A stretch of DNA of 64,000 nucleotides, taken from the NCBI RefSeq assembly GCF_022814725.1, contig NZ_CP093442.1:186001-250000 (forward strand), given 5' to 3'. Position numbers and translations under genes: made by a program. The notes beneath the pieces were generated by a model that made no database searches, was not told the origin of the DNA, and saw only the letters and a list, made by a program, of their open reading frames with translations. The stretch comes from Bdellovibrio reynosensis. Its GTDB lineage: Bacteria; Bdellovibrionota; Bdellovibrionia; Bdellovibrionales; Bdellovibrionaceae. Shown here one piece after another: positions 18,016 through 36,226 of the stretch (position 1 is the stretch's first letter; each line of letters opens with the position of its first letter).

Positions 18016-20292
18016 ATGAGCCACAAAAAACTTTGGACGATATTCGCAATTGTCGTCATAGCCTCATTTGCAGTGTTAGGTTATTACGGGCGGGAGATTT
18101 ATCGGGAGGCTCCGCCAATTCCTCAACAAGTAATCACTACTGACGGGACGGTTTTATTTACCGGTCAACATATCAAAGACGGTATGAACGTGTGGCAGTC
18201 AACAGGGGGGCAAGAGTTAGGTTCTATTTGGGGCCACGGCGCCTATGTCGCACCAGACTGGAGCGCTGATTGGCTTCACAGAGAAGCTGTGTTCATCGCC
18301 AATCGTTTGGCAGAAACTGATTTCAGTAAAAAATATGACCAGCTTGATGAAGCACAAAAAGCCTCAGTTAGATCAAAACTGCAAAATGAAATGCGTAAAA
18401 ACAGTTATGATTCTGCAACTGGCACTTTAACTGTGAGTCCATTAAGAGCGGAAGCCATCGCAGATAATAGCAAACACTATCGTGATTTATTTATGGACGG
18501 CGAAGCCATGGCCCAATTGCGGGACGACTATGCCATTCCTAAAAATGCGATCAAAGATCCTGAGCGTATGGCCTGGATGAATTCCTTTTTCTTTTGGACT
18601 TCTTGGGCTTGCGTAACCCACAGACCTGGCAGCGATATCACTTACACGAATAACTGGCCACCAGATAAACTTGTTGGTAACGAACCCACTGGTTCTCTTA
18701 TTTTGTGGACTGGTTTTAGCGTCATTATTTTGTTAGCGGGTATTGCGCTACTAGCGTTTTATTATGCCGTTAATCACGGTGATGAAATCGATGAAAATCT
18801 TCCTAAGCTCGATCCCCTTTTAGGTTTAAAACCAACTCCTTCCATGGCGGCGACCTTAAAGTATTTCTGGGTGGTGTGCGCATTGATGGTGGTGCAAGTT
18901 ATTCTTGGTGCGGTCACAGCCCATTATGGCGTTGAAGGCAGTGCCTTTTATGGATTTCCGTTAGCTGATTTTCTTCCTTATTCAGTGACAAGAACTTGGC
19001 ACGTGCAAATTGGTATTTTCTGGATTGCGACTTCATGGTTAGCAACGGGTCTGTTTATTGCTCCTGCGGTTTCTGGATATGAACCCAAATTTCAAGCCGC
19101 CGGTGTGCACTTTTTATTTATTTGCTTACTTATCATCGTGGTCGGTTCATTAGCTGGTCAGTGGATGGGAGTCATGCAGAAACTGGGGTTAGAAGAAAAC
19201 TTCTGGTTTGGTCACCAAGGTTATGAGTACGTAGATCTTGGTCGCTTTTGGCAGGCGTTTTTATTGATTGGTTTATTCTTATGGTTGTTCCTAATGTCTA
19301 GAGCCATTTGGCCTGCATTTAAACAGCAAAAAGAAAATCGTCATCTATTAACCATGTTCATGATTGCTTCTGCCGCCATTGCCTTATTTTACGTCGCAGG
19401 CTTCATGTGGGGCCGCCATACAAATTTAGCCATCGCCGAATACTGGCGCTGGTGGGTCGTGCATTTGTGGGTCGAAGGATTCTTTGAAGTCTTTGCGACA
19501 GTGGTGATTGCTTTCCTATTCACGCGCATGGGACTGATTAATACGAAAGTTGCAACTTTAAGTGTGCTGTTTTCAACCATCGTCTTCTTAGCAGGTGGTA
19601 TCTTAGGGACTTTCCATCATCTTTATTTCACTGGAACACCAACAGCGGTTTTAGCGATCGGTGCTAGCTTCAGTGCTCTAGAGGTCGTGCCATTAGTCCT
19701 ATTAGGATTTGAAGGCTATAGCCACTTTAAAGTCAGTAGGGCAGCACAGTGGTTACAAGCTTATAAGTGGCCAATATACTTTTTTATTTCCGTCGCTTTC
19801 TGGAATTTAGTGGGCGCGGGGATTTTTGGGTTCTTAATCAATCCACCGATTGCGCTTTATTATATGCAAGGTCTTAATACAACTCCAGTGCATGGCCATA
19901 CTGCTTTATTTGGTGTGTACGGGATGCTGGGGATTGGCTTAATGCTGTTTGTTCTAAAGGGGCTAGCATCTCGCAATGTCTGGAAAGATGGTGTAATTAA
20001 ATTTGCCTTCTGGTCCATCAACATTGGTTTAGCTTTGATGGTTCTAATCAGTGTTCTGCCAATTGGCTTTTTACAAACCCTAGCCAGCGTAGAGCATGGC
20101 TTCTGGTATGCGCGATCTGCAGAGTTCATGCAGCAACCAGGCATGGATACTTTGCGCTGGTTGCGAGTCATTGGCGACACGATCTTTACCATCGGTATCT
20201 TAGCTTTAGGATGGTTTGTAATCGGTCTTAAGGCGGGCTTTTCTGTTAAGAGCACCGTAGATCTATCTGAAGATACAATGAGCAAAAGATAA
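18016..20292 (+). CDS. norZ: Quinol-dependent nitric oxide reductase (qNOR)
   Basis: A 758-residue membrane enzyme of usual qNOR length that reduces NO to N2O with quinol. It has the N-terminal cytochrome-c-like extra region without heme (residues 35-220, GQHIKDGMNVWQSTGG), then about 12 to 14 membrane helices. Heme and FeB ligand motifs are visible: RTWHVQIGIFWIATSW, WWVVHLWVEGFFEVFATVV with the NOR-specific glutamates, TFHHLYFTG, and HGHTALFGVYGMLGIG. AAAGGAG lies 6 nt before the ATG. The FNR-type box upstream suggests anaerobic or NO induction. NirK, encoded 8 kb downstream, would supply the NO. Confidence 0.95.
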   Translation: MSHKKLWTIFAIVVIASFAVLGYYGREIYREAPPIPQQVITTDGTVLFTGQHIKDGMNVWQSTGGQELGSIWGHGAYVAPDWSADWLHREAVFIANRLAETDFSKKYDQLDEAQKASVRSKLQNEMRKNSYDSATGTLTVSPLRAEAIADNSKHYRDLFMDGEAMAQLRDDYAIPKNAIKDPERMAWMNSFFFWTSWACVTHRPGSDITYTNNWPPDKLVGNEPTGSLILWTGFSVIILLAGIALLAFYYAVNHGDEIDENLPKLDPLLGLKPTPSMAATLKYFWVVCALMVVQVILGAVTAHYGVEGSAFYGFPLADFLPYSVTRTWHVQIGIFWIATSWLATGLFIAPAVSGYEPKFQAAGVHFLFICLLIIVVGSLAGQWMGVMQKLGLEENFWFGHQGYEYVDLGRFWQAFLLIGLFLWLFLMSRAIWPAFKQQKENRHLLTMFMIASAAIALFYVAGFMWGRHTNLAIAEYWRWWVVHLWVEGFFEVFATVVIAFLFTRMGLINTKVATLSVLFSTIVFLAGGILGTFHHLYFTGTPTAVLAIGASFSALEVVPLVLLGFEGYSHFKVSRAAQWLQAYKWPIYFFISVAFWNLVGAGIFGFLINPPIALYYMQGLNTTPVHGHTALFGVYGMLGIGLMLFVLKGLASRNVWKDGVIKFAFWSINIGLALMVLISVLPIGFLQTLASVEHGFWYARSAEFMQQPGMDTLRWLRVIGDTIFTIGILALGWFVIGLKAGFSVKSTVDLSEDTMSKR

Positions 20293-20363: not shown

Positions 20364-20621
20364 ATGAAAGAAGTAATTATCGAAGCTCAGTCAATCCCAC
20401 CTCAACATCGTCATGCTTACATCTTTGAGGCTTTCGACAATTTGGAAGCAGGGGAAAGTGTGGTGATCGTTAATACCCATGATCCTGTTCCACTTTTAAA
20501 ACAATTCGAACAAAACAGAGCAAATCAATTTGCCCATGAGTATCAAGCAAAAGGTCCTGACCTTTGGAAATTGAAACTCACGAAAAATAAGAAAGAAGGT
20601 TGTTGCGGATATTGTGGCTAA
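20364..20621 (+). CDS. DUF2249 family protein
   Basis: An 85-residue cytoplasmic protein. The motifs HRHAYIFEAFDNLEAGESVVIVNTHDPVPLL are diagnostic of DUF2249, which often accompanies hemerythrins, NnrS and denitrification genes. The C-terminus GCCGYCG carries three cysteines that could bind a metal. AAAGGAG precedes the ATG. It has its own FNR-type promoter and probably leads the transcript that includes the NnrS-like gene 90 nt downstream. The biochemical function is not established. Confidence 0.85.
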   Translation: MKEVIIEAQSIPPQHRHAYIFEAFDNLEAGESVVIVNTHDPVPLLKQFEQNRANQFAHEYQAKGPDLWKLKLTKNKKEGCCGYCG

Positions 20622-20711
20622 AAACAAATAAAACATAAAGAAGCGATAGCAAGGTTCCGGGTGCAAAGAATAGTGCCCTTCGTGCCTGGAGCCGTCTTGA
20701 GGAGCTTAAAA

Positions 20712-21854
20712 ATGAAAAACGCCGTTGATGCCTATAGATTGTTTTTTCCTGCCGGCTGGCTCATGGCTTTCTGGGGAGTTTTCCTGTGGATACTTTTTCC
20801 CTGGAAGTTAGTTAGTTACCCAGGTCTTAATCACCCCGAAATCATGATGGGTGGATTCTTTCTTTGTTTTGTCAGTGGTTTTTTAATGACTGCTGTGCCA
20901 AGATTCACAGCAACTTTCGGTCCTTCTGAAAACGATCAAAAATTTTCCTTGGCGCTGATTGCGCTTTTATTTGTTTCCCTGCTTTTACCAGGGAAGAAGC
21001 CATTCTATTTCGCAATTATCTTAAATTTTATTTTTCTGATTTATTTTTGTGCTAAACGTTTTTTAGTCAGAAAAAATGATCCTCCAGAACCTTTTATCTT
21101 TGTCGGCGTCGGACTTTTCACTGGAATCGTCGGGGCCCTGATATTATTTGCAGCCGAATTTACTGAGCTGAATTTTCAAATTTATTCTTTAGGAAAAATA
21201 TTTTTTCTGCAAACTTATATTTTGTGTTTAGTATTAGGCGTAGGTTCAAGATTAGTTCCCGCTCTTTTAGGATGGGCTCCATTGCCAACTGAACAAAAAC
21301 AGAGCTCAGCTAAAAATAGAAAAATGTTCCTGTATTTGGCTCTTTTATTCCTATTAACTTACGTTTGTGAAACATTGGTGAATGCGCCCCTGGCGCTGGC
21401 CCTGCGCGCTGTTTTGATTACTTTCATAACTATGAAGTTCTGGAAGCTTTATAAGCCACCGCAAAGAAAAGCTGTGCAAACTTGGGGACTATGGCTTTCA
21501 GCTTGGTCCGTCGTTGTAGGAGCGTGGGGATTAGTGGTGGTGCCGCAAATGCGCATTCACTGGTTACATATCATTTATATCTCTGGACTGGGCTTAATGA
21601 CTTTTATGATCGCAGTCCGGGTCGTGCTGTCACACGGGGGGCATGACATGGCCATAGAAAAGAAATCAAAGATTCTAGCTGTGGGGGCGTTTTTATTATT
21701 CCTCGCTGGATTAACAAGATTTTCAGCCGGAATTGGTCCCCACATTTATCAATCACATTTATTATACGCAGCAGTCACTTGGATATTTGGACTGCTGCTT
21801 TGGGGGGGGATCTTTATTCCAAAAATGTTTTTTATAACTGAAAAGAAAAACTAA
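20712..21854 (+). CDS. NnrS-like multi-pass membrane protein
   Basis: GAGGAG (20699-20704) lies 7 nt before the ATG at 20712, so I prefer it to the upstream in-frame GTG at 20661. The 380-residue product has about 12 hydrophobic helices. The segment HPEIMMGGFFLCFVSGFLMTAVPRFT matches the start of NnrS proteins (heme- and copper-containing, linked to NO resistance), and AVRVVLSHGGH near residue 310 supplies conserved histidines. Its last codon overlaps the convergent Crp/Fnr gene by 4 nt. The exact function of NnrS is unsettled. Protection of iron pools during NO stress is the leading idea. Confidence 0.8.
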   Translation: MKNAVDAYRLFFPAGWLMAFWGVFLWILFPWKLVSYPGLNHPEIMMGGFFLCFVSGFLMTAVPRFTATFGPSENDQKFSLALIALLFVSLLLPGKKPFYFAIILNFIFLIYFCAKRFLVRKNDPPEPFIFVGVGLFTGIVGALILFAAEFTELNFQIYSLGKIFFLQTYILCLVLGVGSRLVPALLGWAPLPTEQKQSSAKNRKMFLYLALLFLLTYVCETLVNAPLALALRAVLITFITMKFWKLYKPPQRKAVQTWGLWLSAWSVVVGAWGLVVVPQMRIHWLHIIYISGLGLMTFMIAVRVVLSHGGHDMAIEKKSKILAVGAFLLFLAGLTRFSAGIGPHIYQSHLLYAAVTWIFGLLLWGGIFIPKMFFITEKKN

Positions 21855-22486
21855 AGAACTTGGATCTGCTTATGATTCATCTTGATTTGGCCTTCCTCTT
21901 CAAGCTCATGCAAAGCGCGAGAAAAGGTTTCTGGGCGAAGCCCCAGCATCAAGGCCACATCATGTTTTTTACCTTCAAGATGAATGATGGCTTGTTGTTG
22001 CTCTTCTTTAAGACGACAAATATGCATCCATACTCGTTCCTTAGCAGAAGGAGTGTTGATGTTTTCAATGACGACATTTAAGTTATTCAGCCAGCGGATT
22101 AAAGATCCTACCACGGATTGATAAAGAGCGGCGTTGGATTTTAAAATTTCTTGAAAGCTTCTTTTTGGAAGAACAAAAACTTCGGTATTTTCATTAGCTA
22201 CGAAAGTATCCGAATTTTTTTCTTGGCCAAGTATACTGCCTTCACCAAAGGTTTTGCCGGCGCCTAAAACCTGCAAGACGATTTCTTTTCCTCCAGCTGA
22301 AATCTTTGAAACTTTCACAGATCCTTTAATGATTAAATAGATCCCTGTGATTTCTTCGCCGGCTTCAAAGATTAAAGAATTTTTTGGAAAAGACTTTCTA
22401 TGAATGACTTTTAGTAATTCAGAAATGACCTTTTCTTCAAGCGAAGAACAAATGGGGCAATTAGCGATGTCTTTATCTTTGGTCAT
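21851..22486 (-). CDS. Crp/Fnr-family transcription regulator B
   Basis: The ATG at 22486 overlaps the hemerythrin stop as ATGA and has AAGGA 7 nt upstream, so it replaces the longer frame starting at 22519. The 211-residue product has an N-terminal cyclic-nucleotide-binding-type beta-roll (about residues 25-130) and a C-terminal winged helix. The recognition helix reads RPETFSRALHEL: the E-x-x-S-R pattern is that of FNR, which reads TTGAT half-sites like those found here. Two N-terminal cysteines (CPIC, residues 10 and 13) are fewer than FNR's four-cysteine cluster, so its signal may differ (NO, redox or heme). Confidence 0.88.
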   Translation of the reverse strand: MTKDKDIANCPICSSLEEKVISELLKVIHRKSFPKNSLIFEAGEEITGIYLIIKGSVKVSKISAGGKEIVLQVLGAGKTFGEGSILGQEKNSDTFVANENTEVFVLPKRSFQEILKSNAALYQSVVGSLIRWLNNLNVVIENINTPSAKERVWMHICRLKEEQQQAIIHLEGKKHDVALMLGLRPETFSRALHELEEEGQIKMNHKQIQVL

Positions 22487-22995
22487 TGCAGGATCCTTTC
22501 TGCGAGAATAAAAAGACAAGTGTCTTCCTTTTCAATATGAAGCTTTAAAAGCCGCACGTATTCCTGTTCTAACGGAACTAAAAAGTCTTTGTAAAGGTCA
22601 GAAGAGGGGTGAGTATATAAAAATTGAATGGCCTGGGAAAGCTCATGGCCCAAGCGGTGTTCTTCCATGGGTATATTAAGCGGATTGTTGTCTTTAAGCC
22701 AATGAAAGGTCCCATAGGCATGGGGACGGGGGCCCTTGTTTTGGTAAAAGTCTTTTAAAACCTTTTTTGCCCCATCATAAATCTGTAAATCTAATTCAAG
22801 TCCCCGAAAATACATACAACGAGGGCCCCCTTGGTTTAATAAGGGATGCCCTGCAAGCTTTGGGAATAGAAGTTTTTCTTCTTTAGGATGATGGATTTCT
22901 TCAACGTATTTTATAACAGCTAGAATATCATTTTTTTCAATAAGACATAAAATGGCGCGATGTTCTTCGCGAAGTTCATTAATTACTTCGAGCAT
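22483..22995 (-). CDS. Hemerythrin HHE-domain protein
   Basis: A 170-residue helical bundle. Motifs EEHRAIL, EIHHPKEEKLLFPKL, EEHRLGHELSQAI and HIEKEDTCLFIL supply the His/Glu ligands of a di-iron hemerythrin-like (HHE) site. Such proteins bind O2 or NO or repair iron-sulfur centres. The start overlaps the end of the decarboxylase gene by 17 nt and the stop forms ATGA with the downstream Crp/Fnr gene, so the four genes 25473-21851 are translationally linked. Confidence 0.85.
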   Translation of the reverse strand: MLEVINELREEHRAILCLIEKNDILAVIKYVEEIHHPKEEKLLFPKLAGHPLLNQGGPRCMYFRGLELDLQIYDGAKKVLKDFYQNKGPRPHAYGTFHWLKDNNPLNIPMEEHRLGHELSQAIQFLYTHPSSDLYKDFLVPLEQEYVRLLKLHIEKEDTCLFILAERILQ

Positions 22996-24745
22996 AAAGG
23001 ATCTCCATTTCTTTTAAAGTGCTGATGAATAGCTTTTGATAATCGACCTTCATCTCTTTTGTTTTAAAGAAAGGGTTCATAATGCAAAGGCGAATTAGAA
23101 CTAGCTCATCACTGTCGACTTGGCCTTCCCAAGAATTGACAAAGTCATTTATATAAAGTTCATAGCTTTTTTTATTAATTTTAGTTTTAGATACGAAAAA
23201 AACCTGATCTTTATTTTCATGAAAATTCTTAAAGGCTTCAAGGGTGCGTGCATTGCTTTTGCTTAAGGTCTCTCCAGGCGCTGCTAAACAAAAGCCGATC
23301 AGATTTGTATCTGTAGACGGAGCGACCCGTAAGTGGCGTACTTCTTCTTTGAGGCTTTTTTCAAATTCCGATTTAAGCTGGATCGTGCGAGCAATGATTT
23401 TTCCATAGCCCTCTTGCGATAAACCAATGCAATTCGCGGTCATCCAAGTTGCCACAGCCCCAGTGGCACTGCGCGAACCTTCTAAAGTAAAGGGCCCCTT
23501 GTCAGTATGGGCTTGTTGCGCTTTAAAATCCACATAAGGCGCACCAAAAGGATTTTGGAAGTAGTCCCTGGGATTGGAAGTTAAAAATGCGCCGGATGAA
23601 TAGGGGACATACCCAAGTTTATGGGGATCAATCGTTAGCGAAGTTGTTGTTGCGACAGCAGAAAGCGCCTTAAGGCTTTCAGTTGAAAGGGCATTGCTAA
23701 CAGTAATATCTTGTCCTAGTAGGGAACAAAAAAAACCACCATAAGCAGCATCAATGTGATGCCAGATGTGCCAGCCCTTAGACGCACGGTAAGAATCTAA
23801 AACTTCTTGCACCTTATGAATTGGATCGATCATACCAAGTTCGGTAGTTCCTAGAACTGAAACTGCCATTAAAATCGGGCGGTCTTCCTGCTCCGCTTTC
23901 AAGATTTGGTTCGCTAAATCTTTCACATCCATACGGCCTTCGTTATCAAGACGTACAGACCAAAATGATTCAGCACCTAAGCCAAATACGTTAGCCGCTT
24001 TCACCCATGAATAGTGTTTATGTTCAGGAACTAAGAGCACGGGTCCTAAGAAGGCGTTATGAGTGTGTTTAAAAATACGCTGAGAGACCTCAAAAGGATT
24101 ACCCTCTAAAGGATTAAACTTCAGTGCTTCTTCACGGCAGACTTTCGAATTATCATACTGATGCCAGCCCATTACTGAACTTGAAAAGGCCGAGGTAATT
24201 CCCGACGCAAGGCCCGCACTAAGCCACGAATAACAGCGGCTGCGGGCTCTGTAAACGGCTTCGAAGTTGGCAATAGTGCCGCCGGAAGTAAAATGCCCAG
24301 AGCCTTGTGGATAACCGATCATTTTACTAAGCGCCTGAATGGCTTCATCCTCAATAAAAACTCCAACCTTTGATGATTCACCAGAGATATTATTAGGATT
24401 ATGCAGCAGTGTCAGGATATGGCCAAACAAAGCCGGTAAAGACATTTCTGAGAACATATGCCCAATATAGCGAGGCGAGAACTTTGGTATTTCGGCTTCA
24501 AAACGGGTTGTAAGATATTTTAAAGTCTCTTCCGTATTTTTTCTGCGGGAAAGATATTCAGCACTCTGCATGTCGTCCCGAGAAATGGCCCAGCCATCTT
24601 TAGGAAAAGAGTTCTGGCGCCACTCAAACCATGATTTTAAAAGCTGGGATATTTGCTCAGCAACCCATTCACGGTTTTCCGCCTGGGGCCCAAGGAAAAG
24701 TCCTTTCAGCGCGGCTTCAGCTGTTGAGCATTTTATGGGGTTCAT
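22979..24745 (-). CDS. PLP-dependent group II decarboxylase
   Basis: A 588-residue protein of the pyridoxal-dependent decarboxylase family (glutamate, aromatic amino acid or diaminobutyrate type). Visible motifs are GSGHFTSGGTIANFEAVYRAR (phosphate-binding Gly-rich loop), WHIDAAYGGFF (Asp that holds the PLP ring nitrogen) and TIDPHKLGYVPYSSGAF with Lys376 as the Schiff-base lysine. Length is larger than GadB (about 470), matching the 550-600 residue subgroup. It sits inside a regulator-hemerythrin operon; its ATG overlaps the upstream regulator stop (ATGA). The substrate is not determinable, and the pairing with NO/O2 genes is unusual. Confidence 0.88.
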   Translation of the reverse strand: MNPIKCSTAEAALKGLFLGPQAENREWVAEQISQLLKSWFEWRQNSFPKDGWAISRDDMQSAEYLSRRKNTEETLKYLTTRFEAEIPKFSPRYIGHMFSEMSLPALFGHILTLLHNPNNISGESSKVGVFIEDEAIQALSKMIGYPQGSGHFTSGGTIANFEAVYRARSRCYSWLSAGLASGITSAFSSSVMGWHQYDNSKVCREEALKFNPLEGNPFEVSQRIFKHTHNAFLGPVLLVPEHKHYSWVKAANVFGLGAESFWSVRLDNEGRMDVKDLANQILKAEQEDRPILMAVSVLGTTELGMIDPIHKVQEVLDSYRASKGWHIWHHIDAAYGGFFCSLLGQDITVSNALSTESLKALSAVATTTSLTIDPHKLGYVPYSSGAFLTSNPRDYFQNPFGAPYVDFKAQQAHTDKGPFTLEGSRSATGAVATWMTANCIGLSQEGYGKIIARTIQLKSEFEKSLKEEVRHLRVAPSTDTNLIGFCLAAPGETLSKSNARTLEAFKNFHENKDQVFFVSKTKINKKSYELYINDFVNSWEGQVDSDELVLIRLCIMNPFFKTKEMKVDYQKLFISTLKEMEILYARSN

Positions 24746-25473
24746 ACCGCAGCTCCGGTAATGGCTCGCGAAGTTTTGCGCGAACTTTTTTCTATTCTTA
24801 TTTCTTCTAACTTAGCCCGGTCTAACACCTCAATGTGTTTATCTTCGGTGCGAATGTAACCTTTTTTAGTCCACGCACTGATCAAGCGAATCACAGTTTC
24901 TGCCTGGGAGCCGATTTTTCTAGCGATGTCATAACGAGTGGTTGGAATCATCAAGCGCATTCCGTTTTCTTTAGGCTGACGATCTAAAGTTCTTAAAATA
25001 AAATCAGCAAGCTTTTGCGGAGCTAGGGACTTCACCATACAGCGATCATTCTGAAATTCGAAAAAGCGCGATGAAATTTGTTGATGCACGATTTGACGAA
25101 GCTGGGTGTTAAACATGAATTTTTCATTAAAGAAGCGCAGCGGCCATTCGATAACCGCACTTTCTTCATTGGCGATGGCCGACGCAGGGTAGATCGCATT
25201 TTTTAAACTTGCCATTGCGATTCCTAAAAAGTCGCCGCGACTTAGAAATGAAAAAATCACTGGTTCTTGTTCAGAGGGTGTTTGTTGAATTTTAAATGAC
25301 CCATATAAAACCAAATAGACGGATTCGATCTTGCCGCCTTCTTTAAAAAGGGAACGGTTGTGACTTAGATGAGTGATTTTTGCCTGGGTGGCAATGGACT
25401 TTAGCTCCACTTCACTTAAATTTTTAAAGAACTCAAAACACTGCAATTTGTGATAAATCGATGTATCGCTCAT
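24742..25473 (-). CDS. Crp/Fnr-family transcription regulator A
   Basis: A 243-residue regulator with a cNMP-binding-type N-terminal domain (residues 20-130) and a C-terminal HTH. The recognition helix SQAETVIRLISAWTKKG has E-x-x-I-R, differing from regulator B. Only two cysteines are present, so no FNR-style iron-sulfur cluster is expected. It is the first gene of a four-gene overlapping operon. An FNR-type box (25520-25531) lies 47 nt upstream, so it may be controlled by regulator B or itself. Confidence 0.88.
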   Translation of the reverse strand: MSDTSIYHKLQCFEFFKNLSEVELKSIATQAKITHLSHNRSLFKEGGKIESVYLVLYGSFKIQQTPSEQEPVIFSFLSRGDFLGIAMASLKNAIYPASAIANEESAVIEWPLRFFNEKFMFNTQLRQIVHQQISSRFFEFQNDRCMVKSLAPQKLADFILRTLDRQPKENGMRLMIPTTRYDIARKIGSQAETVIRLISAWTKKGYIRTEDKHIEVLDRAKLEEIRIEKSSRKTSRAITGAAV

Positions 25474-25519: not shown

Positions 25520-25531
25520 TGATCTGGATCA
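25520..25531 (-). promoter_or_regulatory. FNR/DNR-type box upstream of the regulator-decarboxylase operon
   Basis: TGATCTGGATCA, a perfect TGAT-N4-ATCA palindrome core, lies 47 nt upstream of the regulator A start codon. It suggests that the four-gene operon belongs to the same regulon as the NO reductase and NirK genes. Confidence 0.6.
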
Positions 25532-25643: not shown

Positions 25644-27473
25644 TTAGGGGCCGCGTAGATTTAAAGCTGCGCGGATGGGATGCTTCGGTGAAGAAGCCAT
25701 TTTGTGATAAAAGCGCTGTGCGGCCTCTTTGCGGCGGGCAGCGCTGAAGTTAGAAATTCGTTTAAGATAACCAATCACTCTAGTGGCGTGGTCAACATCC
25801 TCACTGCCACACTTGCTGCAAAGGTGCAGGGTGCGCTTGTCGATGTGTTCACACTCATTGCAGATAGTGATTTTAATGTTCACGCACCAGTAATTACATC
25901 CTGAAAGGGCGGCGGCCTTAATTAATTTATAAAATCCATCGCCAGTCAGTTTTTCTTCTAGATTTAAATGCAAGGCCGAACCACCATCTAAATACTGCAT
26001 CATCTCATGCCCATGCATTTCCATTTTATCTAAAGCATTGCAGCTATCGTCTTCAACCACATAGAAATACGAATTATAACAGTCCCGCGGGACTTTAAAC
26101 CCATCGCGACGATCCCATTCGGCATTCTTTACGCCTAGGTTTTCTGCCGGAACAAATTCAGTATTAAACATGTAACCAAAGGTTTTTCGTGCTGCTTTAT
26201 TAGCATCATAGATCACCTTTAGTTTTTCTTTTACAAAGCTCTTATAGGGACCATCATTGCGCACTTTGATGCCACTTGCTTCTGCGGCTTCGGCCATGCC
26301 GTTAATCCCGATGGTTAAAAACTGTTTATCTAAAGAGATAAACCCGGCAGAGTAAGCGGTTAATAACCCAGCTGCAAAATATTCTTCCATCAAACGACGG
26401 TATGCCACTTGATATTTTTGCACCTTTTCAACAGTGGCTTGTAAGTCGATATTTTTCTGCAGCAGGCGATTCATGTTAATAGTGATGACATTAATTGAGC
26501 CTGTTGCCACGCCACCAGCTCCAAGGGAATAACTAAAGGTATTATCAGAGATTTCATTTCTTAAGCGACAGCAGCTTGCAAGGCTATCTGCTGACGCACT
26601 CATGTACATAAAAAAGCTGCTTCCCTGACTTAGTTCCCTAGCGCACATGATGGCAAAATTAGAATCTTTGGGTGCGCCGTTTTCTGTAAGCATCGCGGCT
26701 GTGACCACCGGGAAGGTAAGAATGGCTTTTTTGCGTTCACTGTTAAACCAAGTCATGAAATGGGCTTGCAGTTTTTCTACACTTTTCCATTCAGGTTTAT
26801 CGCCATTTGGGAAGACGAAATCACCAAAGAGGGATTCAAAGTAAAACTGATCATAACAAGAGATATTCCAGAAAACAGATTGATATCCTCTGGCCGCCGC
26901 CGGTTGATTCAGGGCATACACGACATGCTGTAGGTGATTATTTATAAGTCTACGATGGGTGTTTAAATAATCATCACCGTAATCAAGACGGGCAAAGTGA
27001 TCAAAGTACATCAGCCACTCTACTGTTGCCACAGCTCCTGCAAACTGCGAAGAAATAGCAAACACCAGATTTACAAAACACCCGCAAAAACTTTCAAGGT
27101 GCTTTGGTACATCTGATTCGCCCCCTAGGTCTTTTAAGCCCCTTAGCAGTAACGGATACATCGAAATTGAAGCGCAATAGGGTTTAAGCGAAGTTTCATC
27201 GTGAACATAAATTTCATGCTCTTCAATTTGACGATGATATTCTTTTCCTAAATCCTCGCCAAACAGTTCGCTGATTTTATCACCGACCAGAGCGCGGTTG
27301 ATTTGTATATTTATATCTTTATTAATCTCTGCTTCCAACGTCGCTATATTTTTGTGGGTCACGTTGGCGTTTGCATCAAGCTTTGCGCCATCGGCCGCAT
27401 TTTTTGCATGTTGATAGTTTTTAATGAAATCTATTTTTTGCTGAATCTGTTCAGCCGTCATACGCACCATCAT
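25644..27473 (-). CDS. nrdD: Anaerobic (class III) ribonucleoside-triphosphate reductase
   Basis: The start at 27473 overlaps the nrdG stop as ATGA and has GGAG 5 nt upstream, giving 609 residues. A longer frame to 27602 runs through nrdG and is rejected. Catalytic features: SLASCCRLRNE with the active-site cysteine, a C-terminal zinc ribbon (CNEC and CSKC), and the glycyl-radical motif ATRVIGYLKR with Gly568. The N-terminus lacks an obvious ATP-cone, so allosteric control may be limited. The enzyme makes deoxynucleotides without oxygen, using the NrdG-generated radical. Confidence 0.93.
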   Translation of the reverse strand: MMVRMTAEQIQQKIDFIKNYQHAKNAADGAKLDANANVTHKNIATLEAEINKDINIQINRALVGDKISELFGEDLGKEYHRQIEEHEIYVHDETSLKPYCASISMYPLLLRGLKDLGGESDVPKHLESFCGCFVNLVFAISSQFAGAVATVEWLMYFDHFARLDYGDDYLNTHRRLINNHLQHVVYALNQPAAARGYQSVFWNISCYDQFYFESLFGDFVFPNGDKPEWKSVEKLQAHFMTWFNSERKKAILTFPVVTAAMLTENGAPKDSNFAIMCARELSQGSSFFMYMSASADSLASCCRLRNEISDNTFSYSLGAGGVATGSINVITINMNRLLQKNIDLQATVEKVQKYQVAYRRLMEEYFAAGLLTAYSAGFISLDKQFLTIGINGMAEAAEASGIKVRNDGPYKSFVKEKLKVIYDANKAARKTFGYMFNTEFVPAENLGVKNAEWDRRDGFKVPRDCYNSYFYVVEDDSCNALDKMEMHGHEMMQYLDGGSALHLNLEEKLTGDGFYKLIKAAALSGCNYWCVNIKITICNECEHIDKRTLHLCSKCGSEDVDHATRVIGYLKRISNFSAARRKEAAQRFYHKMASSPKHPIRAALNLRGP

Positions 27474-27940
27474 GGGGTCTCCTTTATGATTTCTTGTTGT
27501 TGAAATAAATGATTTAGTTTTAAAGCGTTTTTTACGTCCCAAAAAATTTGATTCGTTGTCTGGGATGATAAGCCCCCTAAGCGGGCTACCCAGGGGCCAC
27601 ATTTTAAAAAGTCCAAATGGGATTTTAACTCGGGTGAAACATCGTTAAGGCCTGTATAAAGAGCCGTCTTTAAGCCCCGCGCTGAAGCTTTACTTAAAAG
27701 CTGTACTAGTTTTTGCGGGTGCCATTCGCCACCTAAAAAAACTACGCAGGTGATTTTTTGACTGTATCTATCTAAAAGACTTTCAAACAAATCTTCCGAT
27801 AAAGCATAGCCATTATTTTCTGGCCAAAGTTCCGGCGAATGGCAGCCTGGACAGCGCAAAGAACAGCCGCAAACATAGAAACCCAAGCTTATGTGATTTG
27901 GTACTTCCTGAAACAAGATGTCGTACTTGTAGATGTTCAT
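27470..27940 (-). CDS. nrdG: Anaerobic ribonucleotide reductase activase (radical SAM)
   Basis: A 156-residue radical-SAM protein with the CxxxCxxC-type iron-sulfur motif CSLRCPGCH in the context GFYVCGCSLRCPGCHSPELW, as in NrdG and related activases. A VFLGGEWHP segment matches the SAM-binding GGE motif. It creates the glycyl radical on NrdD, whose start codon overlaps its stop (ATGA). The 200-nt upstream region contains two palindromes and a weak FNR-like site. Confidence 0.92.
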   Translation of the reverse strand: MNIYKYDILFQEVPNHISLGFYVCGCSLRCPGCHSPELWPENNGYALSEDLFESLLDRYSQKITCVVFLGGEWHPQKLVQLLSKASARGLKTALYTGLNDVSPELKSHLDFLKCGPWVARLGGLSSQTTNQIFWDVKNALKLNHLFQQQEIIKETP

Positions 27941-28095: not shown

Positions 28096-28109
28096 ATGAT
28101 CGCCGTCAT
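28096..28109. promoter_or_regulatory. ATGAN6TCAT palindrome related to that at 33244
   Basis: ATGATCGCCGTCAT shares 12 of 14 positions with the perfect palindrome ATGACGGCCGTCAT upstream of the bacteriohemerythrin gene. It lies 155 nt upstream of nrdG. It may be a regulator site (inference). Confidence 0.35.
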
Positions 28110-28141: not shown

Positions 28142-28363
28142 TCAAGTGATCTTAACGATCGCCTGGGCGGGGCAAGTTTCAAGAACTTTCTGACACAGGT
28201 TTTTTTCTAGATCAGTCTTAGGCTGATTATGAACATAGGCATAAGTATGAACGGGATGACTTTTAAAAACTTTGGGCAATTCTTTCCAGCAGTAAGCGCA
28301 GCTCAGGCAGCGCTCTTTTTGCACTTCAAATTGGTCTTGAATTTTTTGCATTGCTTGAGTCAT
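28142..28363 (-). CDS. Ferredoxin-like iron-sulfur protein
   Basis: A 73-residue protein with CLSCAYC (CxxCxxC) near residue 19 and a later CQKVLETCP, the last Cys-Pro being typical of a [4Fe-4S] ferredoxin. One further cysteine is present. It is divergent from nirK with a shared FNR-type box at 28418-28431. A TAGAAT hexamer at 28391-28396 gives a predicted start only about 20 nt from the ATG. It may deliver electrons to NrdG or another anaerobic enzyme (inference). Confidence 0.75.
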   Translation of the reverse strand: MTQAMQKIQDQFEVQKERCLSCAYCWKELPKVFKSHPVHTYAYVHNQPKTDLEKNLCQKVLETCPAQAIVKIT

Positions 28364-28390
28364 TTTAGTGCCCCTGTTCTTTCTACTTTC

Positions 28391-28458
28391 ATTCTAACAA
28401 TATTTCGCAGACTGACTTTGATTTGGATCAATTATTTTCCAATTCAAGAGCGTAGGAT
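28391..28458. promoter_or_regulatory. Divergent promoter pair with one central FNR-type box
   Basis: TTGATTTGGATCAA (28418-28431) is an exact FNR consensus. On the minus side TAGAAT (28391-28396) and on the plus side TAGGAT (28453-28458) sit the same distance (28.5 bp from hexamer edge to box centre), near the class II -41.5 placement for both. One dimer could activate the ferredoxin gene and nirK together. Confidence 0.7.
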
Positions 28459-28579
28459 TGATCGTGTAAGGGAACAAAAAATAAGTTGTTTAATTAAGGG
28501 AATTTTAAAAAACTTTGAAGCTTTAGCAGAAAATTAAAATAATAAAATCTGTAAAGCTGACAACGAGAGGAAGACGAAC

Positions 28580-30058
28580 ATGAAACACAGTAAACTTTAT
28601 TGTTTCATTTTAGCAGGCGCATTGGGTGCTGCGGGATGTACAGGGAAAAACGATGAAGGCGGCGGACGTGACCAAGCTTGGAAGGCTACTTCAGTTGCGA
28701 TTGCTGACGATAACGAAAACTTAGATAAACTTCCGGTTGAGGAATTTAAACAAGTACCTCCACCACAGGTTCCACCGCCTATCACCAGGAAGGCCCCAGC
28801 TCGCGTTAAAATTAATTTAGAAGTGCGCGAGTATGTTGGCAAAATCGCTGACGGTGTAGAATACACTTTCTGGTCATTCGGTGGCACAGTGCCAGGCCCA
28901 ATGATTCGTATTCGTGAAGGGGACTATGTTGACTTCACCTTATCAAATCACCCCGATAGCAAACTTCCTCACAACATTGACTTGCATGCGGTGACTGGTG
29001 CAGGTGGTGGTGCTGAAGGATCTTTCACTGCGCCGGGGCATTCATCGACTTTTTCTTTTAGAGCACTAAATCCAGGTCTTTATATTTATCACTGCGCGAC
29101 AGCTCCAGTAGGTATGCATATCGCAAACGGAATGTATGGTCTGATCTTTGTTGAACCTAAAGAAGGTTTACCAAAAGTGGATAAAGAGTTCTATGTCGTA
29201 CAAGGGGACTTTTATACTAAAGGTAAGTTCGGTGAACGCGGGCTTCAAGCCTTTGACATGGAAAAAGCAATCAAAGAACAACCTGACTATGTCGTCTTCA
29301 ATGGCGCTGTAGGTGCTTTGACTGATAAAGGTAAACTAGAGGCCAAATTAGGTGAATCTGTCCGTATCTTCTTTGGTAACGGCGGACCTAATCTATCTTC
29401 TTCTTTCCACTTAATCGGGGAAATCTTTGATAACGTTTTCCAAGAGGGTGGAACTAAGGTTACTCAAAAGAACGTTCAAACTACTATGGTTCCTGCTGGT
29501 GGATCGGCGATTGTTGAATTCCGCATGGATACTCCTGGAAACTTCATCCTTGTGGATCACGCGATCTTCCGCGCCTTCAATAAAGGGGCACTGGGTATGT
29601 TAACTGTGCCAGGGGAACACAATACTAAGATTTACACTGGTAAAACTAAGGACGCTGTTTACCTTCCTGAAGGTCAAAACATCGTACCTATCGCCCAAGA
29701 ACAAAAGATCGACCCACCTGCCGGAGATTCCTTGGAAGCTCGTATGAAAGCAGGGGAGATCGTATATAAACAAAACTGCTTAGCGTGCCACCAAGCAAAC
29801 GGTGAAGGCGTACCAAATGCATTCCCACCAGTTGCGAAATCAGATTTCTTAATGGCTGATAAAGGACGCGCGATCAAGGTTGTTGCAAATGGTCTTCAAG
29901 GTCAAATTACTGTTAACGGCAAAACTTATAACAGCGTGATGCCAGCGTTGGGACTTTCTGATGACGACATCGCTAACGTTGTAACTTATGTAAGAAACAG
30001 TTTTGGTAATAAAGGTGACCTGGTCACTTTAGATCAGGTGAAAAAGTTTAAAAAATGA
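28580..30058 (+). CDS. nirK: Copper nitrite reductase fused to cytochrome c, lipoprotein
   Basis: A 492-residue predicted lipoprotein (lipobox GAAGC, Cys20) that reduces nitrite to NO. Two cupredoxin domains carry all copper ligands: PHNIDLHA (type 1 His, active-site Asp and type 2 His), YHCATAPVGMHIANGMYG (type 2 His, type 1 Cys, His and Met), SSFHLIGEIFDNVF and LVDHAIFRAF (type 2 His). A C-terminal cytochrome c (residues about 390-485) has CLACH and the Met ligand VMPALG, so electrons are delivered in cis. The stop overlaps the next gene start as ATGA. Confidence 0.95.
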   Translation: MKHSKLYCFILAGALGAAGCTGKNDEGGGRDQAWKATSVAIADDNENLDKLPVEEFKQVPPPQVPPPITRKAPARVKINLEVREYVGKIADGVEYTFWSFGGTVPGPMIRIREGDYVDFTLSNHPDSKLPHNIDLHAVTGAGGGAEGSFTAPGHSSTFSFRALNPGLYIYHCATAPVGMHIANGMYGLIFVEPKEGLPKVDKEFYVVQGDFYTKGKFGERGLQAFDMEKAIKEQPDYVVFNGAVGALTDKGKLEAKLGESVRIFFGNGGPNLSSSFHLIGEIFDNVFQEGGTKVTQKNVQTTMVPAGGSAIVEFRMDTPGNFILVDHAIFRAFNKGALGMLTVPGEHNTKIYTGKTKDAVYLPEGQNIVPIAQEQKIDPPAGDSLEARMKAGEIVYKQNCLACHQANGEGVPNAFPPVAKSDFLMADKGRAIKVVANGLQGQITVNGKTYNSVMPALGLSDDDIANVVTYVRNSFGNKGDLVTLDQVKKFKK

Positions 30059-30777
30059 TTCAACTCATCCTGTTCGTGATCTTAAAACTAGCGTTTGCCC
30101 AACAAACGCTAGTTCCCGGCGGAAACTTTGAGCCTCTTTTTCAGGATAAAGGGGAAGAGGCGGTTTCAATCCCTGCACTTCAAGTGGATAAATATCCCGT
30201 CACTAACGATCAGTTCTTAAAATTTTTAAAGAAAAATCCGAACTGGCAAAAATCGCAAGTGACTCCCGTTGTTGCTGATTCAAACTATCTAAAAAAATGG
30301 ACTGCGGACTTAGCTTTTCCTCCAGGAATTGCAAAATACCCGGTGGTGCATGTTTCATGGTTTGCTGCAAGAGCCTACTGCAAAAGCCAAGGGGGTCGGC
30401 TTCCAACGATCCTAGAGTGGGAATACTTCAGTGATTCACAAAATCCTGCGCATGAAGCAGAGACGTTAAAGTGGTACGCTAAAGGCCAGGAACAGATGAG
30501 AGTGGTTGGGAAATCTAAACCCAACAAATATGGTCTGCACGATACAAGCGGACTTATTTGGGAATGGGTTGATGACTTTTCCAGCGCTATTATGTCCAGT
30601 GATTCCCGCGAAGGCACAAAACGCGATATGTTTTGCGGTGGTGCCTCGGTCGGTTCAAAAAATCCAAAACTCTATGCGGCTTTTATGCGCTATGCTTTAC
30701 GCTCTAGCCTGAAAGCAAATTACAATACATCTTCATTAGGATTTCGCTGTGTGAAAGATGTAAAGGAGACTCAATGA
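30055..30777 (+). CDS. FGE-fold (SUMF1) protein without catalytic cysteines
   Basis: A 240-residue exported protein (signal peptide ending AFA-QQT). The SUMF1/FGE fold is shown by QVDKYPVTNDQFLKFL, PVVHVSWFAARAYCKSQGGRLPT, EWEYFS and a closing SSLGFRCVKD. In formylglycine-generating enzymes two cysteines lie just before the GFRC end. Aligning on GFRC puts Ala and Tyr at those positions here (YAAFMRYALRSS), so it is unlikely to be an oxidase. Sitting between nirK and an SCO gene with ATGA overlaps at both ends, it probably helps assemble or bind the nitrite reductase (inference). Confidence 0.78.
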   Translation: MIQLILFVILKLAFAQQTLVPGGNFEPLFQDKGEEAVSIPALQVDKYPVTNDQFLKFLKKNPNWQKSQVTPVVADSNYLKKWTADLAFPPGIAKYPVVHVSWFAARAYCKSQGGRLPTILEWEYFSDSQNPAHEAETLKWYAKGQEQMRVVGKSKPNKYGLHDTSGLIWEWVDDFSSAIMSSDSREGTKRDMFCGGASVGSKNPKLYAAFMRYALRSSLKANYNTSSLGFRCVKDVKETQ

Positions 30778-31367
30778 AAAAGGTGATTTTACTTATGATG
30801 TATATCTCGTTGCCTTTATGGGCCCATGAAGAGCACCAACATCATCATCAAGACCATGATGAGATGGAAAGCGCAAAAGCGCAAACTGGTATGTCCTTAT
30901 ATCAATTCGATAGTAAGTGGATTGATAAGAACGGCAAAGAATTTGAACTTAAAAGCTTAAAAGGGGAGCCGCGCATTGTCTCCATGCTTTACACTCGCTG
31001 CTTGACAGCCTGTCCGTTACTTGTAAACGAAGTATCGGAAGTTATTAAAAAACTGCCTGAGGCTAAGAAGAATATCTCTGTAACTCTATTTTCTTTTGAT
31101 TCAGAAAAAGAAACGCCAGAGACCATGAAGGATTTTTTAAAGAAAAGAAATTTGCCTGAAAATTGGCAAGTGTTTAAGTCTGACAGTTCGACCGTTGCAG
31201 AGCTGGCTGCGGCTTTAGGTGTTCGTTACAAGAAGCTTAAAAGCGGCGAATACATACACTCAAACGCTATTTACTTGCTAAACGAAAAAGGCGAAGTGAT
31301 TGCGCAAAAAGAAGGGCTTAATACTTCCAACGCGGAATTTGTAAAAGCTATTACGAAAACTAGGTAA
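30774..31367 (+). CDS. SCO1/SenC-family copper chaperone
   Basis: A 197-residue exported thioredoxin-fold protein. The signal peptide is followed by a His-rich tail (EEHQHHHQDHDEM) able to bind copper. The SCO motif CLTACP (CxxxCP) is at about residues 78-83 and the distal His ligand is in GEYIHSNAI. It is translationally coupled to the FGE-fold gene and nirK. The obvious role is delivering copper to NirK or maintaining its thiols, as for other nirK-linked SCO proteins. Confidence 0.88.
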   Translation: MKKVILLMMYISLPLWAHEEHQHHHQDHDEMESAKAQTGMSLYQFDSKWIDKNGKEFELKSLKGEPRIVSMLYTRCLTACPLLVNEVSEVIKKLPEAKKNISVTLFSFDSEKETPETMKDFLKKRNLPENWQVFKSDSSTVAELAAALGVRYKKLKSGEYIHSNAIYLLNEKGEVIAQKEGLNTSNAEFVKAITKTR

Positions 31368-32125: not shown

Positions 32126-32529
32126 TTTTAGCTTGTACATTAATCACATCGCTTATCGGGGCGCAGCTGACGTATTTTTTGATTCACAAAAAACACCTAA
32201 CCACGGTTCGAGCTTCAGCGGCACCAGCTTTAATATTCTCTGTGATCATAACGACATTACCCATTCCATTTTCAGCGGCTTTGCGTGCAGGTTTCCTGGG
32301 GGCCACCTTTGTAGGCATGACGGATAAATCAAGGCTTGGCTGGAAGCGGGTTGCTGTCGCTAGCTTTATTTATGGTTTGGTATTTTATTTTCTTTTGCCT
32401 TTGGTAGATGGATTTGGTGGCGGCTTGGGCGCTGCTGCCTTTACGTCTTGTGGGTTGGTGTTCTTTTTGGATAAAGCCTTTAGAAGATACTTTAAAAATC
32501 TTTTTCTGCGCGCTTACAAGCGTCTTTAA
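32122..32529 (+). CDS. Small four-helix membrane protein B of a paired duplication
   Basis: A 135-residue hydrophobic protein with four helices, overlapping protein A by ATGA. It shares the GFGG-x-x-G-x-x-A-F-x-S signature near its C-terminus and ends in a basic tail (RRYFKNLFLRAYKRL). The last 38 bp overlap the 3' end of the convergent minus-strand gene, an unusually long convergent overlap. Function is unknown. Confidence 0.6.
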   Translation: MILACTLITSLIGAQLTYFLIHKKHLTTVRASAAPALIFSVIITTLPIPFSAALRAGFLGATFVGMTDKSRLGWKRVAVASFIYGLVFYFLLPLVDGFGGGLGAAAFTSCGLVFFLDKAFRRYFKNLFLRAYKRL

Positions 32530-33151
32530 CCAAACTCTTATCAATAGCGACTAAAACACCTCGGTTCGGATTTCTTTTATCAACAAGGAACTGAGCTTTC
32601 ACGGGTAAGCGTACGCGTTTACCTTTCAGATCATACCAATCATCGCCTTCTTGAATTTGATCATCTTCCGTGGAGTCAACAAAGGGCCAAATGAAAGATG
32701 AAAATTGCTCTAGGGCCATAAACTCTTTATCGTGATACATTCCCTTACCGTGTACTAGAAACTTACTATTACTGTGGCTATCTCTGCGCGAATAACTTGC
32801 GGAAGTAAGCTCTCCTTCAACAAACTCAAAGTGCTGAGGACTTTTTATGTAAAGACCTAAGAGGTTTAAAGAACGCTCTTTAATCACCATGTGAACGAAA
32901 AAAAAGGCGACACCATCAAAAGCCAGAAGCGCAAGACCCACCCCAAGGCCAGTGCCCCACGGAAGTTCACCCTTAGCCGTAAGATAAAGCATCCAAGCAC
33001 CTGCTAGAAAACTTGCGACACCTGCAAATCCAAAACCGATGGCTGCAACTGTTAATCCAATGCTACTGGAAAAATTTAATTGCTTTAGTCGCTTTATGTC
33101 GCGCAGTTCCCTGTCACTTTGAATCGCAAGATGTTTCCATGAATTGTGCAT
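32492..33151 (-). CDS. Two-helix membrane protein with soluble C-terminal domain
   Basis: A 219-residue protein. Two hydrophobic helices lie at about residues 30-55 and 65-90, and a soluble beta-rich domain follows (SASYSRRDSHSNSKFLVHGKG onward). It overlaps the 3' end of the small membrane-protein gene by 38 bp. I recognise no family. Confidence 0.55.
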   Translation of the reverse strand: MHNSWKHLAIQSDRELRDIKRLKQLNFSSSIGLTVAAIGFGFAGVASFLAGAWMLYLTAKGELPWGTGLGVGLALLAFDGVAFFFVHMVIKERSLNLLGLYIKSPQHFEFVEGELTSASYSRRDSHSNSKFLVHGKGMYHDKEFMALEQFSSFIWPFVDSTEDDQIQEGDDWYDLKGKRVRLPVKAQFLVDKRNPNRGVLVAIDKSLVKDACKRAEKDF

Positions 33152-33243: not shown

Positions 33244-33257
33244 ATGACGGCCGTCAT
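33244..33257. promoter_or_regulatory. Perfect 14-bp palindrome upstream of bacteriohemerythrin
   Basis: ATGACGGCCGTCAT is a perfect palindrome ending 55 nt before the bacteriohemerythrin start. It also lies between that gene and the divergent membrane-protein gene. A 12/14 relative occurs upstream of nrdG at 28096. Confidence 0.45.
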
Positions 33258-33312
33258 ATAGGAAAAATCTAGGGCTTCCGATCCTACTAGTATCATAAAA
33301 AGAGAGGTGCTA

Positions 33313-33723
33313 GTGGCTGAATCATTTTTTAAGTGGGATCAAGAAAAACTCACGACTCATGTCGATGCAATGGATAACGAACATAAGAAGCTTATCGACA
33401 TCATGAATAAGCTTTACGACCGAAATGCTGCCAAAGCCCCAAAGGCAGAGCTGTCGGCAATCATTAAGGAACTTGCGATGTGGACCGTGACTCATTTTGA
33501 ACACGAAGAAAAATTTTTTGATACTTTAGATTATTCCCAAGCAAAAACTCATAAGACAATTCATAAGGATTTAGTGGAGCGTTTAAAAGGGCACCAAGCA
33601 GAATTTGAAAAAACCGGACAGCTAGGACCCGCGTTTTTTCAATTCTTAAAGACGTGGCTGACAGCCCATATTATGGGGATTGATCTTAAATATGGCGTTA
33701 TCGCGGCTAAGAAAGCGGGATAG
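33313..33723 (+). CDS. Bacteriohemerythrin
   Basis: A 136-residue O2-binding di-iron protein. I prefer the GTG at 33313, 5 nt after GAGG, to the one at 33307. The hemerythrin signature is present: HVDAMDNEHKKL, THFEHEEKFFD, HKTIHKDLV and HIMGIDLKYG, giving five His plus the Glu and Asp ligands. The role may be O2 storage, sensing or delivery. A perfect palindrome lies upstream. It fits the low-oxygen theme of the neighbouring island. Confidence 0.88.
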   Translation: MAESFFKWDQEKLTTHVDAMDNEHKKLIDIMNKLYDRNAAKAPKAELSAIIKELAMWTVTHFEHEEKFFDTLDYSQAKTHKTIHKDLVERLKGHQAEFEKTGQLGPAFFQFLKTWLTAHIMGIDLKYGVIAAKKAG

Positions 33724-34744: not shown

Positions 34745-35443
34745 ATGCAAAAAATAAAAGGAAAATCAAACCTCGTTAAATTTGCCCTTAAATCTCAACT
34801 TCTTTTACTGACGGCCGCTGCCTTTATTGGTTGTGCTGATAGCTCTACCGACCTAGGTTCCCAAACATCTGCAATGGACTCAGCTTCGTCGCATGTAAGC
34901 TCTGTGGCGCCTTTGTGGGAAAGTGAACATCAAGATGGTAAGCAGTGGACTTCGCACGTGCTGAGGCAACTTGATGTGATTGGTACAGATCTTTTAGATG
35001 TTATTCCTAGTGATTATGCGACCTGGTGTCCTAATTATAAAAATCTGACTTACAACGAACGAAAAGATTTCTGGGCCTATCTTCTTTCCCAGATGACTCG
35101 CTATGAAAGCGGATTTGCTCCTGAAAAGTTCTATACAGAATCATTTTCTGATAGCAAAGGGAAGAAAGTGATCAGCCGTGGACTTTTGCAGCTTTCGATT
35201 GAAAGTGGCAACGCCTATGGATGTGGATTTAGAACATCTAAAGATGTACATGATCCAGAACAGAATCTAGCTTGCGGTGTTCGAATTTTGAATCGTTGGG
35301 TCGGCAAAGACGGCAGGATCGGTGGAAATTCCGGAAGACAGTGGAGAGGCGGGGCCCGTTATTGGTCTGTTCTTCGCAGTTCCAGTGGGTCCTACCAAAA
35401 GATTGTTAAAGCCACTAAATCCATTTCTATCTGTCAGAAATAA
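34745..35443 (+). CDS. Lysozyme/SLT-like murein-enzyme lipoprotein, paralog 2
   Basis: A 232-residue lipoprotein (lipobox FIGC, Cys30) with a short linker and the same enzyme domain as the gene at 5847: PLWESEHQDGKQWTSHV, QMTRYESGF (probable catalytic Glu), SRGLLQLSIESGNAYGC and DPEQNLACGVRILNRW. It shares an upstream promoter-like block with the 5847 gene. It is the first of three tandem paralogs and is followed after 5 nt by paralog 3, probably as one mRNA. Murein degradation or modification is the likely role. Confidence 0.72.
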   Translation: MQKIKGKSNLVKFALKSQLLLLTAAAFIGCADSSTDLGSQTSAMDSASSHVSSVAPLWESEHQDGKQWTSHVLRQLDVIGTDLLDVIPSDYATWCPNYKNLTYNERKDFWAYLLSQMTRYESGFAPEKFYTESFSDSKGKKVISRGLLQLSIESGNAYGCGFRTSKDVHDPEQNLACGVRILNRWVGKDGRIGGNSGRQWRGGARYWSVLRSSSGSYQKIVKATKSISICQK

Positions 35444-35448
35444 AGTAG

Positions 35449-36099
35449 ATGAAATTACTTATTCTTTTAGTGACGAGCTTGCTTATTGGTTGTACCGAGA
35501 ATGTATCTGAAGAGGCCGAGTACACTTTTGCTTCAGTGCCGCCAACTTCAACAGAGCCCATGTGGGAAAGTCAACATCCTGATGGGGATGATTGGACAAC
35601 CCACGTTCATCAACAATTAAGTGTGATTGGAACAAATCTTTTATCAGTCGTGCCTGCGGACTATCCGGCGTTTTGCCCGAAATACAAGTCGCTTTCAACA
35701 AGTGATAAAAAAATATTTTGGACTTTTTTGATGGCCCAGATGGTTCGTTATGAAAGTAATTTCGATCCTGATGAGTACTATACAGAATCTTTTACTGACA
35801 GTAATGGCGATAAAATAGTTAGCAGGGGACTTTTGATGCTTTCGTTTGAAAGTGCGAATGCCTATGGATGTAATTTTCAAACTCAAAATGAATTGCACGA
35901 TCCTGAAAAAAACTTGAGTTGCGGAATTCGAATCTTAGACCGTTGGCTTTCTAGAGATAAAAGAATTGCGGGTAAGATCGACGGCCAGTGGCGCGGCGGT
36001 GCCCGTTATTGGTCTGTTCTTCGTAGCAGCAGTGATAAGTATTTAAAAATCGTGAATGCCACCAGAGCTATCTCGATCTGTAATACCAACTCCAATTAG
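35449..36099 (+). CDS. Lysozyme/SLT-like lipoprotein, paralog 3, with altered core motif
   Basis: A 216-residue lipoprotein (lipobox LIGC, Cys15) with the same domain. The probable catalytic Glu is kept in QMVRYESNF, but the SRGLLQIS motif reads SRGLLMLSFESANAYGC. The Gln normally conserved in goose-lysozyme/SLT domains is Met at residue 130 (codon 35836-35838), and the following Gly is Ala. The change suggests altered specificity or loss of activity. It lies 5 nt after paralog 2. Confidence 0.7.
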   Translation: MKLLILLVTSLLIGCTENVSEEAEYTFASVPPTSTEPMWESQHPDGDDWTTHVHQQLSVIGTNLLSVVPADYPAFCPKYKSLSTSDKKIFWTFLMAQMVRYESNFDPDEYYTESFTDSNGDKIVSRGLLMLSFESANAYGCNFQTQNELHDPEKNLSCGIRILDRWLSRDKRIAGKIDGQWRGGARYWSVLRSSSDKYLKIVNATRAISICNTNSN

Positions 36100-36189: not shown

Positions 36190-36226
36190 AATAAAGCCAC
36201 TCACAAAATCGACCGAATGAATAGGT

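Follow-up and report, generated by a model that had tools for sequence, protein, structure and literature searches.

Why a PLP-dependent decarboxylase should be encoded between a Crp/Fnr-family regulator and a hemerythrin-like di-iron protein is the question raised by a predicted four-gene operon of Bdellovibrio reynosensis, found in a stretch of 64,000 nucleotides that was analysed as a whole (the window). The original prediction, made from the DNA letters, placed four overlapping genes at 21851-25473 with two ATGA junctions and one of 17 nt, and both the coordinates and the overlaps of 4, 17 and 4 nt were reproduced: crpB and the decarboxylase gene (DC) share an ATGA at 24742-24745, DC and hhe overlap at 22979-22995, and hhe and crpA share an ATGA at 22483-22486 (Table 1). 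The families named there (two Crp/Fnr regulators, a PLP decarboxylase and a hemerythrin) are all upheld, the first three by Pfam and the hemerythrin through its ligands, its structural model and a YtfE profile match. For crpA, an alternative TTG start upstream would give a protein of 222 aa. The reading preferred here, with a probability of roughly 0.7, is that of a low-oxygen/NO-responsive operon, in which Crp/Fnr regulators would act on promoter boxes, Hhe would be a YtfE/RIC-like protein and DC an accessory decarboxylase of the tyrosine-decarboxylase type, whose clade is repeatedly tied to the same regulon.

Table 1. Operon and surrounding genes, with positions in the window
Feature	Position	Strand	Remarks
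norB, quinol-type (qNor) nitric oxide reductase	18016..20292	plus	box TGATCTAAATCA at 17930
DUF2249 (COG4309) gene	20364..20621	plus	box TGATCCAGGTCA at 20300
nnrS	20661..21854	plus	family assignment
crpA, Crp/Fnr-family regulator	21851..22486	minus	211 aa from ATG; cNMP_binding and HTH_Crp_2
hhe, hemerythrin-like di-iron protein	22483..22995	minus	170 aa; weak Pfam Hemerythrin match
DC, PLP-dependent decarboxylase, tyrosine-decarboxylase-like	22979..24745	minus	588 aa; Pyridoxal_deC 6.2e-31 (Pfam)
crpB, Crp/Fnr-family regulator	24742..25473	minus	243 aa; first gene of the operon; HTH_Crp_2 1.3e-14, cNMP_binding 3.8e-12 (Pfam)
FNR/DNR-like box TGATCTGGATCA	25520..25531		centre ~53 nt upstream of crpB start
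nrdD and nrdG, anaerobic ribonucleotide reductase and activase	25644..27940	minus	box at 28097
nirK (C-terminal cytochrome c), nirV-like FGE-sulfatase, SCO1	28580..31367	plus	box TTGATTTGGATCAA at 28418

The setting of the operon is a denitrification and nitric-oxide island of the genus Bdellovibrio, in which nnrS and crpA converge tail to tail, their ends overlapping by 4 nt (21851-21854). Its layout in relatives was followed by retrieving relatives of hhe together with their gene surroundings. At least nine Bdellovibrio genomes have, with small variations, nirK-nirV-SCO1-DUF2249, an opposite-strand crpB-hhe, nnrS and nrdD-nrdG-crpA. In nine related Bdellovibrio loci crpB directly overlaps hhe with no DC between them, and in most of the related islands the crpA orthologue is located upstream of nrdG; DC is missing from several of these genomes, while others have it far from the island. 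The window therefore holds a crpB-hhe pair with DC between its two genes and with crpA displaced, the latter standing behind hhe instead of beyond nrdG as in the relatives. In other words, a conserved denitrification island has been rearranged here and the operon is one piece of it (a point absent from the original prediction), and the placement of DC is either an insertion here or a loss elsewhere, the wider pattern being crpB-hhe without DC. The gene make-up had been called unusual, which is borne out, and its parts also recur in relatives, for which reason the grouping goes beyond chance; it is a real one that is met repeatedly, and probably forms part of a low-oxygen/NO regulon.

The recognition helix of crpA is of the FNR (ExxSR) type, reading RPETFSR in the window as well as in its orthologues, and that of crpB (AETVIR) is not ExxSR-type. 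A conserved N-terminal CPIC motif is present in crpA, together with a variable C156; crpA thus lacks the full set of four cluster-binding cysteines of FNR (three N-terminal, one central), and the cysteines of crpB vary. The window has 12 copies of the palindrome TGAY-N4-RTCA, 9 of them in the intergenic 11% (p ~5e-7); the motif was picked after inspecting this same window, so that the relatives are the fair test. The intergenic copies precede norB, DUF2249, the crpB operon, nrdG, nirK and a second hemerythrin gene; they include TGATCGCCGTCA (28097-28108), which lies 163 nt upstream of nrdG in the nrdG-nirK gap, and the perfect palindrome TTGATTTGGATCAA (28418-28431) upstream of nirK. TTGAT-N4-ATCAA-like boxes are found upstream of the member operons in relatives as well as in the window, and an FNR/DNR-like box stands upstream of crpB-like genes in 12 out of 17 cases. 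Before DC operons, a box was found in 12 of the 20 loci linked to NO genes (the window locus counted) and in 8 of the 17 unlinked loci, compared to 33 of 237 control genes (p = 9e-6 and p = 0.002, respectively). Two smaller observations concern the same boxes. A doubtful small ORF (28229-28537) overlaps the nirK-side palindrome, and the second hemerythrin gene, a classical one (33307-33723), has TGACGGCCGTCA at 33245-33256 ahead of its start, a box which it has in common with a divergent gene of no assigned family (32492-33151).

The Pfam Hemerythrin match of Hhe (4.9e-5) lies 1.1 bits below the gathering score. Hhe is nevertheless kept as a hemerythrin, because its ligands are conserved in orthologues, AlphaFold2 confidently predicts a bundle of helices that contains an inserted segment (pLDDT 94) and the best profile matches in the PDB are YtfE entries. 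Among 22 relatives, H12, H35, E39, H113 and E157 are conserved and H153 mostly so (Asn in a few), which fits an H, HxxxE, H, HxxxE arrangement of iron ligands (i.e. H12, H35/E39, H113 and H153/E157); a pattern of four His and two Glu is known for YtfE/RIC. The relatives also keep a GGP-x-C60 motif and C160. Structural comparison contributes little, since Foldseek returned no significant PDB match for Hhe; a second comparison put PF0695 (3cax) on top at Z 10.4, which is within helical-bundle noise. Relative to the di-iron NO-protection proteins NorA/YtfE/DnrN (RIC), Hhe is alike in its ligand pattern and in being sited with NO genes, but it is distant in sequence and carries the conserved GGP-x-C motif in an insertion between helices. 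It also has no room for a ScdA_N-like domain ahead of the first ligand helix: the N-terminal ScdA_N domain of YtfE (RIC) proper is absent from Hhe, as the first iron ligand is found already at residue 12 of 170.

DC matches the fold of 5HSJ (TM 0.85) and is ~28% identical to characterised tyrosine decarboxylases. Its K376, H244, Y382 and S424 align with K392, H241, Y398 and S440 of LbTDC, and within the DC clade K376, H244, S424 and Y404 are invariant and Y382 nearly so. The hallmarks of a group II PLP decarboxylase are thus all present, i.e. the PLP lysine, the stacking histidine, the phosphate-binding serine and two tyrosines (substrate-side and loop), for which the roles of the residues have been described (PMC4904194). 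Against the tyrosine-decarboxylase equivalog TIGR03811, DC scores 246.9 bits, far short of the cut-off of 905. By sequence and fold its nearest relatives are a tyrosine decarboxylase of lactic acid bacteria and a fungal non-canonical aromatic amino-acid decarboxylase, from which an aromatic substrate is the best guess. With these enzymes (Lactobacillus/Enterococcus tyrosine decarboxylase, 5HSI/5HSJ and 7CWX; Psilocybe ncAAAD, 6EBN) DC shares the fold, the PLP lysine, the stacking histidine and the substrate-loop tyrosine. Besides the low identity, it differs from them in its genomic setting, in the lack of a detected tyrosine/tyramine permease, which in lactic acid bacteria is encoded next to the enzyme, and in its separate clade: all Bdellovibrionota members group together, apart from the outgroups, with support 100/100. 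It also differs in an N-terminal Cys6 (codon 24728-24730), which all 42 aligned sequences of the clade have, as far as they cover the column, and which all six outgroup decarboxylases lack. Among named relatives of DC, the closest are Bdellovibrio records, one of them from strain kdesi (63% identity).

Across the phylum, DC was found in 40 of 291 sampled Bdellovibrionota genomes. Of the genomes with DC, 30 of 40 have nirK and 35 of 40 have nnrS, compared to 31 and 62, respectively, of the 251 without it. Either gene lies within 10 kb of 18 of the 41 DC copies, as opposed to 1 of 88 other PLP decarboxylases, by which the idea that PLP decarboxylases generally sit by NO genes is rejected. When only genomes bearing nirK or nnrS are considered, the linkage is 18 out of 37 versus 1 out of 25 (p = 1.6e-4); these counts take genomes as independent while the genomes are related and families unevenly sampled, so that p-values are indicative. 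Along with the original prediction it had been considered that homologues of the decarboxylase might never be near hemerythrin or Crp/Fnr genes. A hemerythrin gene is in fact found within 5 kb of DC in 13 of 40 loci, 11 of them on the same strand (~1% expected from copy number), and Crp/Fnr genes, too, are repeatedly found near it.

In six loci the hemerythrin gene adjoins or overlaps DC, one of these (L065) being a fragment-like gene of 97 aa, and in locus L069 a further weak hemerythrin candidate overlaps DC. The neighbouring hemerythrins are of three types, including PAS-hemerythrins in strain kdesi and locus L080. In kdesi (L057) the PAS-hemerythrin gene heads the DC operon with one unassigned gene between; in L080 it likewise heads the operon, where DC is preceded by a COX15/CtaA gene and followed by another hemerythrin gene.

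It could be argued that an ordinary aromatic amino-acid decarboxylase has simply landed in a rearrangement-prone anaerobic island, where it is expressed by read-through from the crpB promoter without any link to NO or O2. That related species have crpB-hhe without DC, and in some cases DC elsewhere, agrees with such a neighbourhood effect, as does the fact that about half of the DC copies are not beside nirK, nnrS or hemerythrin genes. Nevertheless, it is unlikely, given that the linkage recurs in distant families with differing gene orders, that other PLP decarboxylases lack it and that unlinked DC copies still tend to carry FNR-type boxes. The label "linked" changes ~15 times on the DC tree, with at least 11 of the changes forced by well-supported branches, and inheritance from a single ancestor is thereby rejected. 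Linked and unlinked states are intermixed, which fits repeated gain or repeated loss; together with the negative control, this scatter makes a single ancestral accident unlikely.

Some results speak against the preferred reading, besides the unlinked DC copies and the low identity to characterised tyrosine decarboxylases. Within the genus Bdellovibrio alone there is no clear correlation between DC and nirK (7 of 9 versus 6 of 12), and in four genomes with DC (G004, G016, G140 and G296) nirK, nnrS and norB all went undetected in these searches. One of the four is kdesi (G016), where the DC operon still starts with the PAS-hemerythrin gene and is preceded by a box. The common denominator is therefore the sensing of low O2 or NO rather than denitrification itself. 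Also against the preferred reading, four annotated distant DC homologues on plasmid records outside the phylum have no denitrification genes nearby, and one of them (Aliiroseovarius) follows a Crp/Fnr gene. Separately, a more distant class of decarboxylases (~33% identity; G238:C38, G250:C7 and G244:C19) has nnrS within 10 kb in two of the three genomes, hinting that the association with NO genes may extend past the DC clade.

The low-oxygen/NO-responsive operon might then work as follows. One or both of the Crp/Fnr-type regulators would bind the TGAT-N4-ATCA boxes observed in the island and thereby activate norB, DUF2249, nirK, nrdG and the crpB-DC-hhe-crpA operon. Hhe, given its ligands, could act as a di-iron protein of the YtfE/RIC kind, handling NO or O2, protecting metal centres, or both. 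DC, which has the fold and the catalytic residues of an active group II PLP decarboxylase, would convert an L-amino acid to an amine and CO2 with the consumption of one proton; its substrate is probably aromatic and abundant while prey is digested. As for why a denitrifying predator would need it, a guess is that prey digestion releases free amino acids, which decarboxylation would turn into amines with the uptake of a proton each. DC would be an accessory function of anaerobic or denitrifying life. In the window species it sits inside an apparently older crpB-hhe pair, and elsewhere in the phylum the same clade is tied repeatedly to the same regulon. DC looks like an overlooked member of the NO/low-oxygen stress response, because its relatives across the phylum recur by the same genes or control sites. 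A more far-reaching version, possible if doubtful, is that a decarboxylase-hemerythrin module, unrecognised so far, is a regular part of this response across Bdellovibrionota, with DC acting on NO biology itself (removing nitrosatively modified aromatic amino acids, or making an amine signal) and Cys6 as a possible redox/NO switch.

Alternatively, DC could serve acid resistance or energy generation in the style of tyrosine or glutamate decarboxylases with their antiporters, where proton uptake counters acid or acidified-nitrite stress. Decarboxylation does consume a proton, and among characterised enzymes DC is closest to the lactic-acid-bacterial tyrosine decarboxylases. Denitrification itself consumes protons, however, and no TyrP homologue was found in any DC locus or in ten genomes with DC (weak evidence, as the search had no positive control), on which a TyrP-type antiport partner is rejected; this role is consequently quite improbable. 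According to the original prediction, decarboxylation (to an amine or GABA-like product) could link pH or a signalling amine to O2/NO sensing. Its O2/NO side fits the island and the boxes, while the pH and GABA-like side is speculation: the nearest enzymes act on tyrosine or other aromatic amino acids and are not glutamate decarboxylases, and the search for a TyrP-kind amine antiporter came back empty. It is very improbable that DC is a PanP-like aspartate decarboxylase that provides beta-alanine or another precursor under anaerobic conditions, as its similarity to the PanP model TIGR03799 is weak, with a score well under the cut-off, and PanD is present in the genome of the window and in nearly all searched relatives with DC, so that no replacement enzyme is needed and DC as a PanD substitute is disfavoured. 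The absence of a TyrP-kind permease and the presence of PanD together point away from a classical antiport or pantothenate role.

FNR-like regulators, YtfE-type hemerythrins, DUF2249, nnrS, norB and nirK are standard members of NO regulons (PMC1274295, PMC9045102), DUF2249 being listed as COG4309 (PMC1274295). The nitrogen-oxide regulons of DNR, NnrR, HcpR and NsrR (Rodionov et al. 2005, PMC1274295) share with the island FNR-like regulators and TTGA-type palindromes, as well as nor, nir, nnrS, COG4309 and hemerythrin-type dnrN/ytfE under related control; the word "decarboxylase" is absent from the main text of that paper, whereas here a clade of PLP decarboxylases is a recurrent companion. The hemerythrin Mhr of Pseudomonas aeruginosa, regulated by Anr, is similar in being under an FNR-type regulator at low O2, but Hhe has a YtfE-like ligand set and NO-gene neighbours, and no decarboxylase is mentioned where Mhr is cited (PMC12403760). 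A literature search for a decarboxylase with denitrification, nnrS or Bdellovibrio, covering papers outside subscription, found nothing relevant. The decarboxylase is the new element here and is mentioned in no paper found. Two decades of mapping NO and denitrification regulons have turned up no decarboxylase among their members in the literature found; that the DC clade follows NO genes phylum-wide (in position, co-occurrence and promoter boxes) suggests that a metabolic step or signal has been missed in the life of these largely predatory bacteria at little or no oxygen. As the sequenced Bdellovibrio strain kdesi carries a relative of DC, the system is testable.

Elsewhere in the window, three consecutive plus-strand genes (34745-36946) give weak matches to lytic transglycosylases (SLT) and are perhaps a tandem family, and the protein encoded at 37003-38838 has an M23 peptidase domain together with polyglycine-hydrolase-like BTRD1 repeats.
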